This document shows, one piece after another, positions 29,960 to 37,456 of a stretch of DNA of 64,000 bases (its first letter is position 1; every line of letters begins with the position of its first letter). Where the stretch lies: assembly GCF_000244915.1 (NCBI RefSeq), contig NZ_CM001442.1:310001-374000 (forward strand), given 5' to 3'. The DNA comes from Bradyrhizobium sp. WSM471. Its GTDB lineage: Bacteria > Pseudomonadota > Alphaproteobacteria > Rhizobiales > Xanthobacteraceae. The notes beneath the pieces are model-generated. The model was not told the origin of the DNA. It worked only from the letters and a program-made list of their open reading frames with translations, and searched no databases. The translations under genes and the position numbers were made by a program.

Positions 29960-31231
29960 TCAGGCTGCCTCCGCCGTGGGCTGGAGTTGGACAGTGAAGC
30001 CGAGCTTCTTGAGGCGCGCGACGAGGCGGTTTGCTTGGACCTCCATGGGCCGGCGATCGAAGTAGGCGGCACCGAGATCGCGGTGCTCGGTGCCGTCTTT
30101 GAGGATGTGGTAGATAGCGGTGAGGATCGAAGCGGCGACAGCACAGATGGCTTTTTGCGGCCCGCGCTTGGCCTGCAATCGGAAGAACTGAGTTCGGTAA
30201 TAGCTGTTTTTGCTACGCTTGGCGGCCCAAGCACATTGGACGAGCATGGTCTTGAGCCACGGTGCCCCCTTGCGCAGGCGCGAGGATTTGCGCTTGCCGG
30301 CGCTCTCGTTTTGCCCGGGGCACAGGCCGGTCCAGGCGACGAGATGGCCAGCAGTCCGGAAGCGGCTCATGTCAGCGCCGATCTCGGACAAAATTGCCGG
30401 CGCTGCGACCGCGCTGACGCCGGGGACCGTGGTCAGCAACCCGATCAGGTGGCGAAAGGGGATCTTGCGACCGTCCGCCTCCGCTTCCATACGTTCGATC
30501 CGCTCGGCGATTTCGGCATCAAGCCGGCGAATCGTCTCATCCAGAACATCCCATTGCTGCAGATGAAGCGCGAGTAGAAAGCGATGGTGATCCGTCAGGC
30601 GGCCGTGCAACGCATCGTAAAGCTCCTTCGGCGACGCCTTGATCTGCTTGCCGGCAAGCTCGGCCAGCTTGTTCGGCTGCCGCTCGCCGTTGATCATCGC
30701 CTGGATGATCCGCCGGCCGCTCGCGCCCATGATGTCGGAGATGACCGAGCCGAGCTTGATGTTGGCTTCTGCCAGCGTCTTGTCGATCCGCTGAACGTGC
30801 CGCGTCTGTTCGCGCACCAGTTGCTTGCGTGTTCGCGTCAGGGCACGCAGCTCCTGCACCCGCTCTTCCGGAATGAAGCTGCCCTTGATCAGCCCGCAGG
30901 CCAACAGGTCGGCGATCCACATCGCATCGTTCATGTCGGTCTTGCGTCCCGGAACATTCTTGATGTGCGCCGCATTGGCGACGATCAGTTCAAAAGCGCC
31001 TTCGCCCAGAATCCGGAACACCGGCATCCAGTAGACGCCCGTCGCCTCCATCGCCACATGCGTGCACCGGCTTTCCTCCAGCCATCGTCGCAGCTCTGCA
31101 AGCTGCTCAGTCGTGGCCGCAAAGGTCCGGCACTCTCGCTGCGCCTTCCCCTCGACCATGATCCGCAGGCAGGCCACAACTGTGTCCTTATGCACATCCA
31201 GGCCCGCCACCCGCTCGTACAGAATATCCAT
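29960..31231 (-). CDS. IS110-family transposase (DEDD recombinase)
   Basis: A 423-residue transposase. The RuvC-like N-terminal domain has the acidic residues of VAGLDVHKDTVVACLR, HVAMEATGVYWMP and GRKTDMNDAMWIADLLA. The C-terminal transposase_20 domain holds LTTVPGVSAVAAPAILSEIG and the serine segment CPGQNESAGKRKSSRLRKG. The ATG at 31231 follows GAGGAGAGGAGC, a very strong ribosome site. No frameshift or stop interrupts it, so the element may be active. Confidence 0.96.
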   Translation of the reverse strand: MDILYERVAGLDVHKDTVVACLRIMVEGKAQRECRTFAATTEQLAELRRWLEESRCTHVAMEATGVYWMPVFRILGEGAFELIVANAAHIKNVPGRKTDMNDAMWIADLLACGLIKGSFIPEERVQELRALTRTRKQLVREQTRHVQRIDKTLAEANIKLGSVISDIMGASGRRIIQAMINGERQPNKLAELAGKQIKASPKELYDALHGRLTDHHRFLLALHLQQWDVLDETIRRLDAEIAERIERMEAEADGRKIPFRHLIGLLTTVPGVSAVAAPAILSEIGADMSRFRTAGHLVAWTGLCPGQNESAGKRKSSRLRKGAPWLKTMLVQCAWAAKRSKNSYYRTQFFRLQAKRGPQKAICAVAASILTAIYHILKDGTEHRDLGAAYFDRRPMEVQANRLVARLKKLGFTVQLQPTAEAA

Positions 31232-31485
31232 GCTCCTCTCCTCAACAGTTCGCGCCGGCGGCATAGGCGCCTGTCAAAAAAGAATGCTAGGAAGCGTGCT
31301 CTAGGGCCATACTGCCCCTCCGCGCCAGTGTGGGTCATCCAGGCAACCCGGGTCCAACTCGCAACCGGGCTCTCACGCACCAGTGAGCAATCGACCTCTT
31401 TGCCGACGGCACCTCAGTTTACCGCTCTTGCCAACCCGCGAAAAGTTTCATCCAGCGCGCGTCAGACCCTCAAGACTGGTCCCAA
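31232..31485 (-). ncRNA. Candidate IS110 bridge RNA region (left-end leader)
   Basis: In the IS110 group a bridge RNA that pairs with donor and target DNA is made from the non-coding leader upstream of the recombinase. This 254-base stretch has no credible gene and is the right size. It contains CCAACTCGCAA at 31355-31364 (plus strand), repeated at the element end and target (31483-31492), so part could act as a guide. Exact RNA ends and fold are not resolved here. Confidence 0.45.
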
Positions 31486-34901: not shown

Positions 34902-34945
34902 GGGCGCTTTCCGCCCAAAAGGGAAAGCCCGGCATATCGACCGGG
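34902..34945 (-). other. Two small hairpins in the typA leader
   Basis: GGGCG-CTTTC-CGCCC (34902-34916) and CCCGG-N8-CCGGG (34928-34945) lie 96-140 bases upstream of typA, after the terminator of the preceding operon. They could structure the 5' leader; no known riboswitch is recognised. Confidence 0.35.
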
Positions 34946-34974
34946 CACCCTACGCGTTGCGGCGCAATATAGGC

Positions 34975-35062: not shown

Positions 35063-35332
35063 TCAGCCGCGCCGGCCCTTGATGGCGGCCCAGATCAGGG
35101 CGACCCCGCCCAGCCCCACGACGAGGCCCAGGAACACCAGGGGCGCGACGTCGGAATCGATCCGGCCTCTGTCGGATATGGAGATTCCGCCGAACAGGAG
35201 TGCACAGGCGCCGGGCAGCAGCAGGATGATCCCAAAGATCGCCATGAGCGCGGTCAGGCAACCGCTGCGCTGGTTCGGCGGGGCAGGAGGCGGTCCCGGA
35301 GGGGCTGGCGGCGGCGCGTCGCTGATGCTCAT
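35063..35332 (-). CDS. Small membrane protein of the Lgt-like/radical SAM cassette
   Basis: An 89-residue protein of unknown function. A Pro-rich N-terminus (SDAPPPAPPGPPPAPPNQR, residues 4-22) precedes two hydrophobic helices (CLTALMAIFGIILLLPGACA and VFLGLVVGLGGVALIWAAI) and a basic tail KGRRG. Its ATG overlaps the radical SAM stop by 4 bases (ATGA), showing translational coupling, and a terminator follows it. It may anchor or assist the radical SAM enzyme at the membrane; that is inference from position. Confidence 0.8.
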   Translation of the reverse strand: MSISDAPPPAPPGPPPAPPNQRSGCLTALMAIFGIILLLPGACALLFGGISISDRGRIDSDVAPLVFLGLVVGLGGVALIWAAIKGRRG

Positions 35333-36759
35333 GCCTGCAGGACTCCTTCGGTTGACTGTGCCGCCAGTTCGGCGCGGATGCCGTCGACCTTTCCGTTCCG
35401 GTAGAACAAATTGTAGGTGTCGAACGGGATGATCGCGCCGTTCTCGGTGACGAAATGGATACAGCTGCGCTTGACGTTGCCGACGCAGAAATTGAAGCGG
35501 TCGAGAAACTGCACGATCGTGACGCGGAATACGTTCTCGTACGTGATGCCCTGCGGTACCTCGAAGCTTGGCAGGCAGCACAGCAATTCGCAGACGCGCT
35601 CGCTCGTGTTCAGCGGTCCCGAGGACAGCGAAAACAGATCGATGAATTTCTCCCTCAGCGCCGGATGCTTCTCCGGGCTTATCGTATTGGGCAACAATGC
35701 GACGAGTTGCTCCTGCGGGATCAGCGAGGTCAGCGGCAGCACTTTCTCGCCGTTGCGCAGGCCGTAACCGATCGAGATGCTTTCGGGGTTGCAGGGTAGC
35801 GGGATCATGTCCTTGTCGCCGAACACGCCGGTTTCGACCACGCGCTTGCGGATCTCCGACAGCATGATGCGGTCGGTTTTCTTGTCGAAATTCTCGTTGC
35901 GGCCGGCATCCTGCACCGGCTGCAGCGTGACGCCGCGCACGCATTTCCAGCTCAGCGCGTGGCGAACGATGTCGCCGATCTCGGCATCGTTGACGCCACG
36001 CTTGATGGTCGCCACCAGCGTGGTCGATACGCCGCAATGCTCGAGATTCTCCAGCGCCTGCTGACGGATCTTGCGCAAATCAGCGCCGCGCAGATTGATC
36101 AACGCGTCGCGTTCGAGCGAGTCGAACTGGAGATAGACCTCGAGCCCGCGCTTGTTCTCGGCGAGCCGCGCCACGAAATCCTTTTCGCGGGCGATACGCA
36201 GGCCGTTGGTGTTGATCATGACATGGCGGATCGGGCGGGCGCGCACCGCATCGAGGATCGCGAAGAAGTCGGGGTGCAGCGTCGGCTCGCCGCCGGAGAT
36301 CTGCACCAAATCAGGCTCGCCTTCGCTCGCGACCAGCGCGTCCAGCATTCGCTCGATCTTGGCCAGCGGCGTGAAGCTGGTCCGCGCCGGCGAGGAATCG
36401 GCAAAGCACACCGGGCAGGTCAGATTGCAATGCTCGGTGATCTCGATCAGCGCCAGGCAGGAATGCTGCTCGTGGTCGGGGCACAGGCCGCAATCGTAGG
36501 GGCAGCCGAATTCGGTATGCCGTTGAAAGGCGAGCGACCGGTCGCCCGGCTTGATGAAATCCTTGCACAGGCGCCAATAGGCTGCGTCCGTCGACACCAG
36601 CGTGGACTGGACGCCATGCTCCTTGCAGCGCTTCTCGTACCAGACCTCGTTGTCGAGGATCTGGATCTTGGCCGGCACCAGCTTCAGGCAGGTCTCGCAT
36701 AGAGATTGGGTCTGGCCCCAGAAGATATAGGGGCGCGACTTACGCAACGGCGCGTTCAT
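35329..36759 (-). CDS. Radical SAM protein of the tetraether-synthase-like group (COG1964)
   Basis: A 476-residue radical SAM enzyme. The cluster motif CNLTCPVC (C111, C115, C118) follows a Cys-rich N-terminus: CETC (21, 24), C45, and CPYDCGLC...C (86, 90, 93, 101) just before it. SGGEPTLHPDF and VMINTNGLRIA are SAM-site elements. Later cysteines (PLPCNPE, CELLCC, NFCVGNVKRSC) could bind auxiliary clusters. The block CPYDCGLCPDHEQHSCLALI is the hallmark shared with archaeal Tes, which joins lipid chains by C-C bonds. It overlaps the Lgt-like gene by 20 bases and the small membrane gene by 4. Reaction here unknown. Confidence 0.85.
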   Translation of the reverse strand: MNAPLRKSRPYIFWGQTQSLCETCLKLVPAKIQILDNEVWYEKRCKEHGVQSTLVSTDAAYWRLCKDFIKPGDRSLAFQRHTEFGCPYDCGLCPDHEQHSCLALIEITEHCNLTCPVCFADSSPARTSFTPLAKIERMLDALVASEGEPDLVQISGGEPTLHPDFFAILDAVRARPIRHVMINTNGLRIAREKDFVARLAENKRGLEVYLQFDSLERDALINLRGADLRKIRQQALENLEHCGVSTTLVATIKRGVNDAEIGDIVRHALSWKCVRGVTLQPVQDAGRNENFDKKTDRIMLSEIRKRVVETGVFGDKDMIPLPCNPESISIGYGLRNGEKVLPLTSLIPQEQLVALLPNTISPEKHPALREKFIDLFSLSSGPLNTSERVCELLCCLPSFEVPQGITYENVFRVTIVQFLDRFNFCVGNVKRSCIHFVTENGAIIPFDTYNLFYRNGKVDGIRAELAAQSTEGVLQA

Positions 36760-37456
36760 GCATGGGTCTCGCTTTGGGCGCCCTCGCCAGCATGACGACG
36801 GCGTAGAGCAGGATGGACAGCGACAGCAGGTGAAACAGCGTGAAGGGGCCGATCAGCGTGCCGTAGGGCTTGAGGAATTCCCACAGGAAGCGCTGTGCGC
36901 CATAGTAGACAAGGACGAGGTAGAACCCATTGGTGATCACAAACGCGCTCCGGTTCAAGACCGCCAGCACGTAGAGCAGCGCGAATACCCCCATCGCGGC
37001 GCTTTCGTAGAGCTGCACGGGATGGCGAAGGAGGCCGTCGCCGAAATCATGACCCCAGGGCCATGCCGTCGGCGTGCCGTAGGTGAAATCGTCGAGGCCC
37101 GCAAAATAGCAGCCGAGCCGGCCGATCGCGATGCCGAGCGCCAGCGGCAGCGCAAAACGGGCGCCGGTTCGGACCGTGATCCCTGCGGACCATTTGTAGA
37201 GCTCGATTGCCACGATGCCGCCGGCGAGCGCACCTTCCACGGAGCGCGCGATGCCGCTCTGGCCCGACAGCCACAGATTGGCGGAGCCGAACAGATAGGC
37301 CCCGAGGCCCGCACCGAACACCAAAGCGGCGAGGTAGGACCGTTCGAAGGATTGCGCCGGAAACCGCAAGCCCTGTCGCGACAGCCAGTACAGTGCCGCG
37401 GCCGCAGCCAGCCACGCCCCGACATCGAAGAGAGTGTGAAGGAAAGCCCCGCTCAT
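36740..37456 (-). CDS. Lgt-like (prolipoprotein diacylglyceryl transferase family) membrane protein
   Basis: A 238-residue polytopic membrane protein with about seven helices. GRLGCYFAGLDDF and LLRHPVQLYESAA match the Lgt family signatures (GRxGNF and RHPxQLYE). It is shorter than standard Lgt (about 280), and the first signature has Cys where Lgt has the conserved Asn, so it is probably a specialised paralogue rather than the housekeeping enzyme. True Lgt moves diacylglycerol from phosphatidylglycerol to a lipoprotein cysteine. Its 3' end overlaps the radical SAM start by 20 bases. The ribosome site is weak. Confidence 0.82.
   Translation of the reverse strand: MSGAFLHTLFDVGAWLAAAAALYWLSRQGLRFPAQSFERSYLAALVFGAGLGAYLFGSANLWLSGQSGIARSVEGALAGGIVAIELYKWSAGITVRTGARFALPLALGIAIGRLGCYFAGLDDFTYGTPTAWPWGHDFGDGLLRHPVQLYESAAMGVFALLYVLAVLNRSAFVITNGFYLVLVYYGAQRFLWEFLKPYGTLIGPFTLFHLLSLSILLYAVVMLARAPKARPMHERAVA

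Follow-up and report, generated by a model that had tools for sequence, protein, structure and literature searches.

Two described systems bear on the genes considered here. First, the lipoproteins of the Lgt/Lsp/Lnt system carry a lipobox, [LVI][ASTVI][GAS]C, at the end of the signal peptide. In Escherichia coli Lgt, R143 and R239 are essential, and E202 and Y235 belong to a donor pocket; H103, in the HGGL motif, is likewise essential and was proposed to bind the lipobox peptide (PMC4728403). Second, Tes, which is represented by MJ0619 of M. jannaschii, is a radical S-adenosylmethionine (SAM) enzyme known for its action on lipid tails. One account reports 456 bacterial Tes homologues (PMC8941075), and another reports homologues in 110 of 684 metagenome-assembled genomes (MAGs) of Planctomycetota, which are counted as candidate makers of membrane-spanning lipids (PMC11868695). 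Here, we analyze a cassette from Bradyrhizobium sp. WSM471 in which an Lgt-like gene is paired with a Tes-like radical SAM gene and a gene for a small membrane protein. The cassette lies in a 64,000-nucleotide stretch of DNA (positions 310,001 to 374,000 of NZ_CM001442.1), which we call the window; the genome is a single contig of 7.78 Mb. Among the titles and abstract openings of open-licence papers, we found no description of an Lgt protein paired with a Tes-like radical SAM enzyme. The parts come from known families, but the combination and the proposed class of acceptor are, as far as could be seen, undescribed.

The cassette is a recurring module, well beyond chance. We put the probability at roughly 45% that it is a dedicated protein-lipidation module, in which a cysteine of the small protein would be lipidated by the Lgt paralogue, with the radical SAM enzyme altering the lipid. 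This reading comes from comparisons of sequences and modelled structures. The conserved module, the folds, the conserved residues, and the near-constant position of the cysteine are direct observations.

In the window, the three genes lie on the minus strand and overlap, just as the earlier note described. The Lgt-like gene (36740..37456) encodes a membrane protein of 238 amino acids that is a paralogue of prolipoprotein diacylglyceryl transferase. It shares 20 bases (36740-36759) with the gene for the Tes-like radical SAM protein (35329..36759; 476 amino acids), which shares the 4 bases ATGA (35329-35332) with the gene for the small membrane protein (35063..35332; 89 amino acids).

To describe the module more broadly, we used 80 named loci, which are the best 80 of at least 578 relatives confirmed in a scan of species genomes. 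They come from Bradyrhizobium, Rhodoplanes, Reyranella, Caulobacterales, Sphingomonadales, Rhodobacterales, unplaced MAGs, and two MAGs labelled as planctomycetes. In 78 of the 80 loci, the Lgt-like gene adjoins the radical SAM gene or is one small gene away (the latter in L079, L080, L082, L086, and L105); the other two loci start at a contig end. In L079, L080, L082, and L105, an additional membrane protein, some 146 residues long (..RADFWCRVLGWLQ..), is encoded between the two larger genes.

Surveys of genomes gave a similar picture. Within the family, 10 of 149 genomes (counting the window's) carry orthologues that are at least 74% identical along almost their full length, and the Lgt-like gene is overlapping or adjacent in all 10. 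The class survey found the radical SAM protein in just 4 of 289 genomes; the three besides the window's have an Lgt-family gene nearby, which in L116 is a weak match (58 bits) behind small genes. Across Pseudomonadota, the radical SAM protein was found in 12 of 398 genomes, and the same 12 carry Lgt-like hits of 129 to 359 bits, with every other Lgt hit at about 59 bits or less; only a few candidates were scored per genome, the radical SAM and Lgt-like surveys of Pseudomonadota are taken as the same sample, and the 12 genomes are related (7 genera with hits) rather than 12 independent cases. The link that the earlier note drew between the two larger genes is thus borne out by the 80 loci and by co-occurrence in these 12 genomes. 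A search with the zinc-ribbon domain added two further genomes, G812 and G827, both with an Lgt-like gene.

Of 246 genomes from the phylum to which G847 (a MAG with the label Planctomycetaceae) belongs, 49 have the same domain. From 34 of the 49 we took 36 stretches, chosen by best zinc-ribbon score; four stretches from Pseudomonadota, together with L142, L145, and L146, bring this distant set to 43 radical SAM loci. An Lgt-like gene lies within 1.5 kb, in either order, in 29 of the 43. The 14 loci without one all come from the planctomycete survey, and contig ends truncate some of them. A plasmid search matched 10 records, and among the five examined, the pair is also found on a Persicobacter plasmid (Bacteroidota), on a Mycobacterium avium plasmid, whose Lgt-like gene carries an Lgt-family annotation, and in a Nonomuraea record (Actinomycetota). 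In records from Mycolicibacterium and a haloarchaeon, an annotated methyltransferase replaces the Lgt-like gene, and L011 seems to be similar, as read from its sequence.

The module is thus found in four phyla, in different gene orders. We also considered whether the adjacency might be historical, with no joint function at all. The distribution is patchy (6 of 10 same-genus genomes in the 398-genome survey), and one family genome, L013, retains a remnant of the radical SAM gene alone (about residues 400-465), beside typA, which is a sign of cassette loss. Given the four phyla, the varying gene orders, the translational overlaps, and the finding that the same 12 of 398 genomes carry both larger genes, this explanation is very improbable; the counts already tell against it.

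The claim that the first protein belongs to the Lgt family held up. It scores above the Pfam gathering threshold for PF01790 (the Lgt superfamily) and has the Lgt fold: 5azb (Lgt) was shown when VIA-align was run over Foldseek's own list, although Foldseek alone gave no PDB match for the model at E <= 0.001. A phmmer search of PDB with the single protein found nothing. Six NCBIfam Lgt models match the protein, and none of their cut-offs is reached: the best score is 40.3 bits (cut-off of 334), and TIGR00544 gives 29.9 bits (cut-off of 118.9). The motifs GRLGC and RHPVQLYES are present, with a cysteine in place of the usual asparagine, as had been reported for this protein; the cysteine is at the place of Asn146 of E. 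coli Lgt. In an alignment of 23 rows (including the window's), R143, E202, Y235, R239, and E243 of E. coli Lgt correspond to R113, E151, Y185, R189, and E193, which are invariant in the Lgt-like rows, as is Cys116 at the position of N146. The position of H103 is variable: it is Glu in the window and Glu, Ala, Val, or Leu in the others. This pattern suggests that the donor and catalytic side is retained and that the acceptor side is altered. In four of five genomes that we examined, a canonical Lgt is encoded separately from the cassette copy.

The second protein was claimed to be a Tes-type enzyme. The fold is indeed that of Tes: the protein matches 7tol with an E value of 2.3e-61, and Foldseek matched the structure model to 7tom over its whole length (E = 5e-33; template modeling [TM] scores of 0.77 and 0.74); the model has a confidence score (pLDDT) of 74, and some stretches, such as 70-99 and 349-370, are of low confidence. 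The cysteines that the earlier note mentioned are all present, namely, C111/C115/C118, the Cys-rich CPYDCGLCPDHEQHSCLALI block, and further C-terminal cysteines, which are C323, C394, C395, C425, and C433; D447 is also found in the C-terminal part. C111/C115/C118 form the radical SAM cluster motif (CX3CX2C), C86/C90/C93/H96 form an N-terminal cluster motif, and there is a rubredoxin-type site at C21-X2-C24-X20-C45-X2-H48. In two actinobacterial radical SAM proteins (L145, 3890-5431, and L146), C86/C90/C93 and His96 are missing, yet the Lgt-like neighbour is kept.

However, the protein does not seem to be Tes itself. It scores 264.7 bits against the NCBIfam Tes model NF045702, whose cut-off is 450; the best NCBIfam match is TrsS (NF045646), at 302.3 bits, which is below that model's cut-off of 490. 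The C-terminal cysteine columns also differ (positions in 7tol are counted from the alignment). At position 470 of 7tol, which is the cysteine of PFCTYN, all 30 rows from groups A, B, and B2 have Asp or Glu, whereas all 17 rows with a letter there from the six other groups have Cys (one more row has a gap). In the CC pair at 455 and 456, the first cysteine is Ser or Thr in the same 30 rows, and the second is kept. C394/C395 are found in 28 of the 30 rows and also in some rows outside these groups. Because of these changes, the C-terminal cluster is probably ligated differently than in Tes. Some Tes-like proteins (P0008, P0015, and P0017) are annotated in their source as 7,8-dihydro-6-hydroxymethylpterin dimethyltransferase, a label that we presume was inherited from the early assignment of MJ0619. 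A search with the M. avium protein found 2,727 proteins at E <= 1e-30 among 7,995 scored, with 120 listed, and was used for names alone.

We built a quick tree from 81 radical SAM rows and 316 core columns, with a single Tes row as the root and SH-aLRT (Shimodaira-Hasegawa-like approximate likelihood ratio test) support alone. It has nine long end branches, and 26 of its 78 inner branches are open, so its details are unsure. A clade of 54 rows (SH-aLRT 99) includes 50 with an Lgt-like neighbour, 2 at contig edges, and 2 without. A wider clade of 73 rows (SH-aLRT 91) includes all 59 rows with an Lgt-like neighbour, 12 without, and 2 at edges. The rows of the methyltransferase type, the haloarchaeal row, and L012, which is presumed to be of the TrsS type, fall outside the 73-row clade. 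The Lgt-neighbour label needs 7 changes on the tree, compared to a mean of 20 when shuffled. The cassette's radical SAM protein is placed in a bacterial clade, away from the single Tes row that serves as the root. L203 and L209 (from the planctomycete survey) carry Tes-like radical SAM genes in tandem, two or three of them, and lack an Lgt-like gene.

These comparisons bear on an alternative in which the radical SAM protein would be a bacterial Tes producing free membrane-spanning lipids, with delivery or regulation of those lipids by the Lgt-like and small proteins. The Tes fold and the cofactor motifs fit with this, and it is the role that was proposed for bacterial homologues in the two reports above (PMC8941075, PMC11868695). 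Nevertheless, it seems quite unlikely for this clade, which appears to be separate from Tes (as judged from one Tes row), is altered in the C-terminal cluster region, is far under the NCBIfam cut-off for Tes, and is tightly tied to an Lgt paralogue. Since the Lgt and Tes family assignments hold, a link between the cassette and lipids or a lipid anchor is plausible.

The earlier note treated the small membrane protein as a bystander, but the comparison marks it as the likely acceptor. In the window, it has a Pro-rich N terminus, two transmembrane segments (TM1 and TM2), and a basic tail. C25 lies at the inner end of TM1 and C43 (LLLPGAC) at the presumed outer end; by its position and conservation, C43 (codon 35204..35206, minus strand) is the proposed modification site. 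Across 91 pairs from 14 close relatives, the small ORF (open reading frame) has a median ratio of nonsynonymous to synonymous substitution rates of 0.29, which indicates purifying selection, so it behaves as a real gene.

To find its counterparts, we considered transmembrane ORFs of 45 to 200 residues that start at -12 to +24 relative to the radical SAM stop. Such an ORF is straight behind the stop in 70 of the 80 loci. After removing relatives of at least 55% identity, 40 nonredundant ORFs remained, and 33 of these start with the 4-base overlap (-3). A hydrophobic stretch with G.?C is present in 67 of the 70 and in 37 of the 40 nonredundant ORFs (in a few of the 37, such as L074 and L100, the scored cysteine is not the usual one). 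As a control, we applied the same rule behind 1,372 other open-frame stops in these loci, and of the 43 transmembrane ORFs that it yielded, just 2 have the motif; the control frames are open frames of at least 250 residues, many of which are not genes, so some of the control ORFs are not genes either. Proteins that pass the motif occur in up to four copies per locus. Seven loci failed the automatic motif filter. By reading, we found such a protein in L083, L086 (between the large genes), and L099; L068 has a variant with Ser-Met-Cys.

The consensus of the motif is [SPCGAT]-G-x-C-[STA]-L. Among the 37 ORFs, 36 have Gly at -2, 29 have Leu (19) or Gly (10) at -1, and 25 have Ser, Pro, or Cys at -3. 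The motif cysteine is a median of 20 residues past the nearest preceding charge. At 1.5 angstroms per residue, this is one membrane thickness, so the cysteine would sit at the outer interface if the N terminus is inside. The GxC cysteine is probably at the outer interface of the membrane. In the copies from L031-L065, 37 of 49 have a second cysteine exactly 18 residues before the GxC cysteine, as compared to 0 of 58 others; thus, in the Bradyrhizobium-type copies, both ends of TM1 carry a cysteine.

The small proteins of the distant loci have seemingly unrelated sequences, save for the cysteine at a helix end, which is a median of 20 residues after a charge and a median of 10.5 residues from the C terminus. 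Their N termini include zinc ribbons (L185, L195, L196, L199, and L218) and a Pro-rich type (L145). Using a permissive filter that was set after reading the sequences, and that lets in the doubtful rows L199 and L216, we found an ORF with an interfacial cysteine in 23 of the 29 distant loci with an Lgt-like gene and in 1 of the 14 without. A further idea is that the small proteins are noncatalytic scaffolds that join the Lgt-like and radical SAM proteins, with a structural or metal-binding cysteine and the true acceptor elsewhere. In its favour, the small proteins are short, and their cysteine has a near-constant position relative to the membrane. But the variable copy number, the sequences that are largely unrelated save for the cysteine, and the zinc-ribbon and Pro-rich N termini are odd for a subunit, and we regard this as decidedly improbable.

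Another alternative is that the radical SAM enzyme acts on the small protein itself, for instance by forming a thioether or another bond at the conserved cysteine or its neighbours, and that the Lgt-like protein is a membrane partner or acts at a later step. Tandem and fast-diverging small ORFs with one fixed cysteine do resemble precursor peptides, and peptide maturases, SkfB and SuiB among them, account for several of the Foldseek runners-up. However, only 7tom and 7tol match at full length; the other rows shown have TM scores of 0.32 to 0.42 by query length. Also, radical SAM relatives that lack an Lgt-like neighbour have the small ORF in only 1 of 14 loci, so the small protein tracks the Lgt-like gene. 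Overall, we consider peptide maturation unlikely.

We therefore return to lipidation of the small protein. We propose a dedicated transferase for its cysteine because the cassette includes an Lgt-type protein without the acceptor motif that is tied to proteins sharing an interfacial, non-lipobox cysteine. Its partner may modify lipids because it is closest to a radical SAM enzyme that is known for action on lipid tails. The Lgt paralogue would work at the inner membrane's outer face, where it would take a glycerolipid group from a phospholipid and pass it to the GxC cysteine that the co-encoded small proteins have at the membrane interface. On the cytoplasmic side, the radical SAM enzyme would make a radical change in the hydrocarbon tails of the transferred lipid, either before or after transfer; this would most likely be C-C coupling or another modification of the tails. 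We infer the orientation in the membrane, the identity of the acceptor, which way the transfer runs, and the nature of both the lipid and the radical reaction. The acceptor step has better support than the radical step.

Several observations weigh against this proposal. First, the topology is awkward: the cysteine is presumably outside, and the radical SAM enzyme works inside. Second, transferase activity could have been lost, since H103, an essential residue of E. coli Lgt, is not conserved and a cysteine takes the place of N146. In G847, which is an incomplete MAG as judged by its many contigs, only the cassette copy of Lgt was found, so the Lgt-like protein could be that cell's sole Lgt. 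Third, because the C-terminal cluster region is altered, coupling of the Tes type is not assured. Fourth, the small proteins do not have a lipobox, given Gly at -2 and Leu or Gly at -1, and in Bradyrhizobium there is also a second conserved cysteine (C25). Fifth, the small protein is sometimes missing: on reading, we saw none in L067, L096, or L108 (3 of the 80 loci), and 6 of the 29 distant loci with an Lgt-like gene lack it. Two of those six (L189 and L197) are cut by contig ends, but L146, L204, L213, and L214 apparently truly lack it. Finally, besides the permissive filter, the 14 loci without an Lgt-like gene hold just 3 small membrane ORFs in total, so the contrast of 23/29 with 1/14 mainly reflects whether an ORF is present; per ORF, the comparison is 30 of 44 with 1 of 3.

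If the proposal is true, then the Lgt fold has a second acceptor rule, and radical SAM chemistry has a new class of substrate. A stronger claim, which is possible but doubtful, is that this is a second lipidation system parallel to Lgt/Lsp/Lnt, which places a radical-modified lipid, perhaps tail-coupled or membrane-spanning, on an interfacial cysteine of tiny membrane proteins, so that these would be covalently stapled to an unusual lipid; many bacterial Tes homologues would then modify protein-linked lipids instead of making branched glycerol dialkyl glycerol tetraethers (brGDGTs). The reading of bacterial Tes homologues as makers of membrane-spanning lipids now has a rival for the Lgt-linked clade, and the proposal gives a large set of these homologues a concrete and testable role. 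If many of the homologues that have been counted belong to this clade, then the counts overstate the number of producers of brGDGTs, which are lipids that are used as temperature proxies.

Besides the radical SAM and Lgt-like genes, no real-looking cluster of neighbours is present in more than 12 of 51 loci (L060-L110), in a list of clusters of 6 or more loci that includes many antisense shadows. Genes that we take to be sensor-kinase-like and EttA-like are found in 12 of these loci each, and a presumed TypA gene in 8; these neighbours look like insertion sites. In the window, what we take to be a Crp/Fnr-like gene is upstream of the cassette, and a presumed typA gene is downstream. The intrinsic terminator claimed behind the cassette is there as a terminator-like hairpin with a T-rich tail (34927..34946, minus strand), 117 bases beyond the last stop, but with 4 such sites in the whole stretch versus 2.6 expected from shuffles, the hairpin alone is weak evidence. 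A 434-residue ORF at 29960-31264 of the window (minus strand) resembles an IS110-type transposase. We dropped the possibility of a defence system: the only PADLOC hits were weak viperin matches, at 45.9 bits, in the core of the radical SAM protein, and the other two proteins drew none.

Relative to Lgt (PDB 5azb), the Lgt-like protein has Cys for Asn146 and Lys for Arg246, and His103 is not kept; it is below the cut-offs of all six matching NCBIfam models and is a second copy beside a canonical Lgt in four of five genomes. The small proteins are like the lipoproteins of the Lgt/Lsp/Lnt system in that a hydrophobic helix has the cysteine at its presumed outer end, roughly a membrane length past the last charge. 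They differ in the motif, which is G-x-C with Leu or Gly at -1 and is unlike a lipobox, and in that the hydrophobic stretch runs on, or the protein ends, soon after the cysteine. The radical SAM enzyme is like Tes, or GDGT-MAS (MJ0619, 7tol/7tom), in its fold (TM score of 0.77), its rubredoxin-type C-X2-C-X20-C-X2-H, its N-terminal Cys3-His motif, and its CX3CX2C. It differs in belonging, as far as one Tes row shows, to a separate clade, in having Asp or Glu for the PFCTYN cysteine and Ser or Thr for the first cysteine of the CC pair, and, on the cassette side, in C394/C395 (28 of 30 rows) and the tie to Lgt-like and small proteins. TrsS (NF045646) is the best NCBIfam match but the cut-off of 490 is not reached, and L012, which is presumed to be of the TrsS type from its sequence and neighbours, lacks an Lgt-like neighbour. 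Finally, radical SAM proteins of the same wider COG1964-type family are paired with methyltransferases in L011 (1141-3806), L143, and L144, which come from an alphaproteobacterium (as read from the sequence) and from a mycobacterium and a haloarchaeon (as annotated). In this recurring pairing, the methyltransferase is next door in place of the Lgt-like gene, and the radical SAM proteins are outside the Lgt-type clade.

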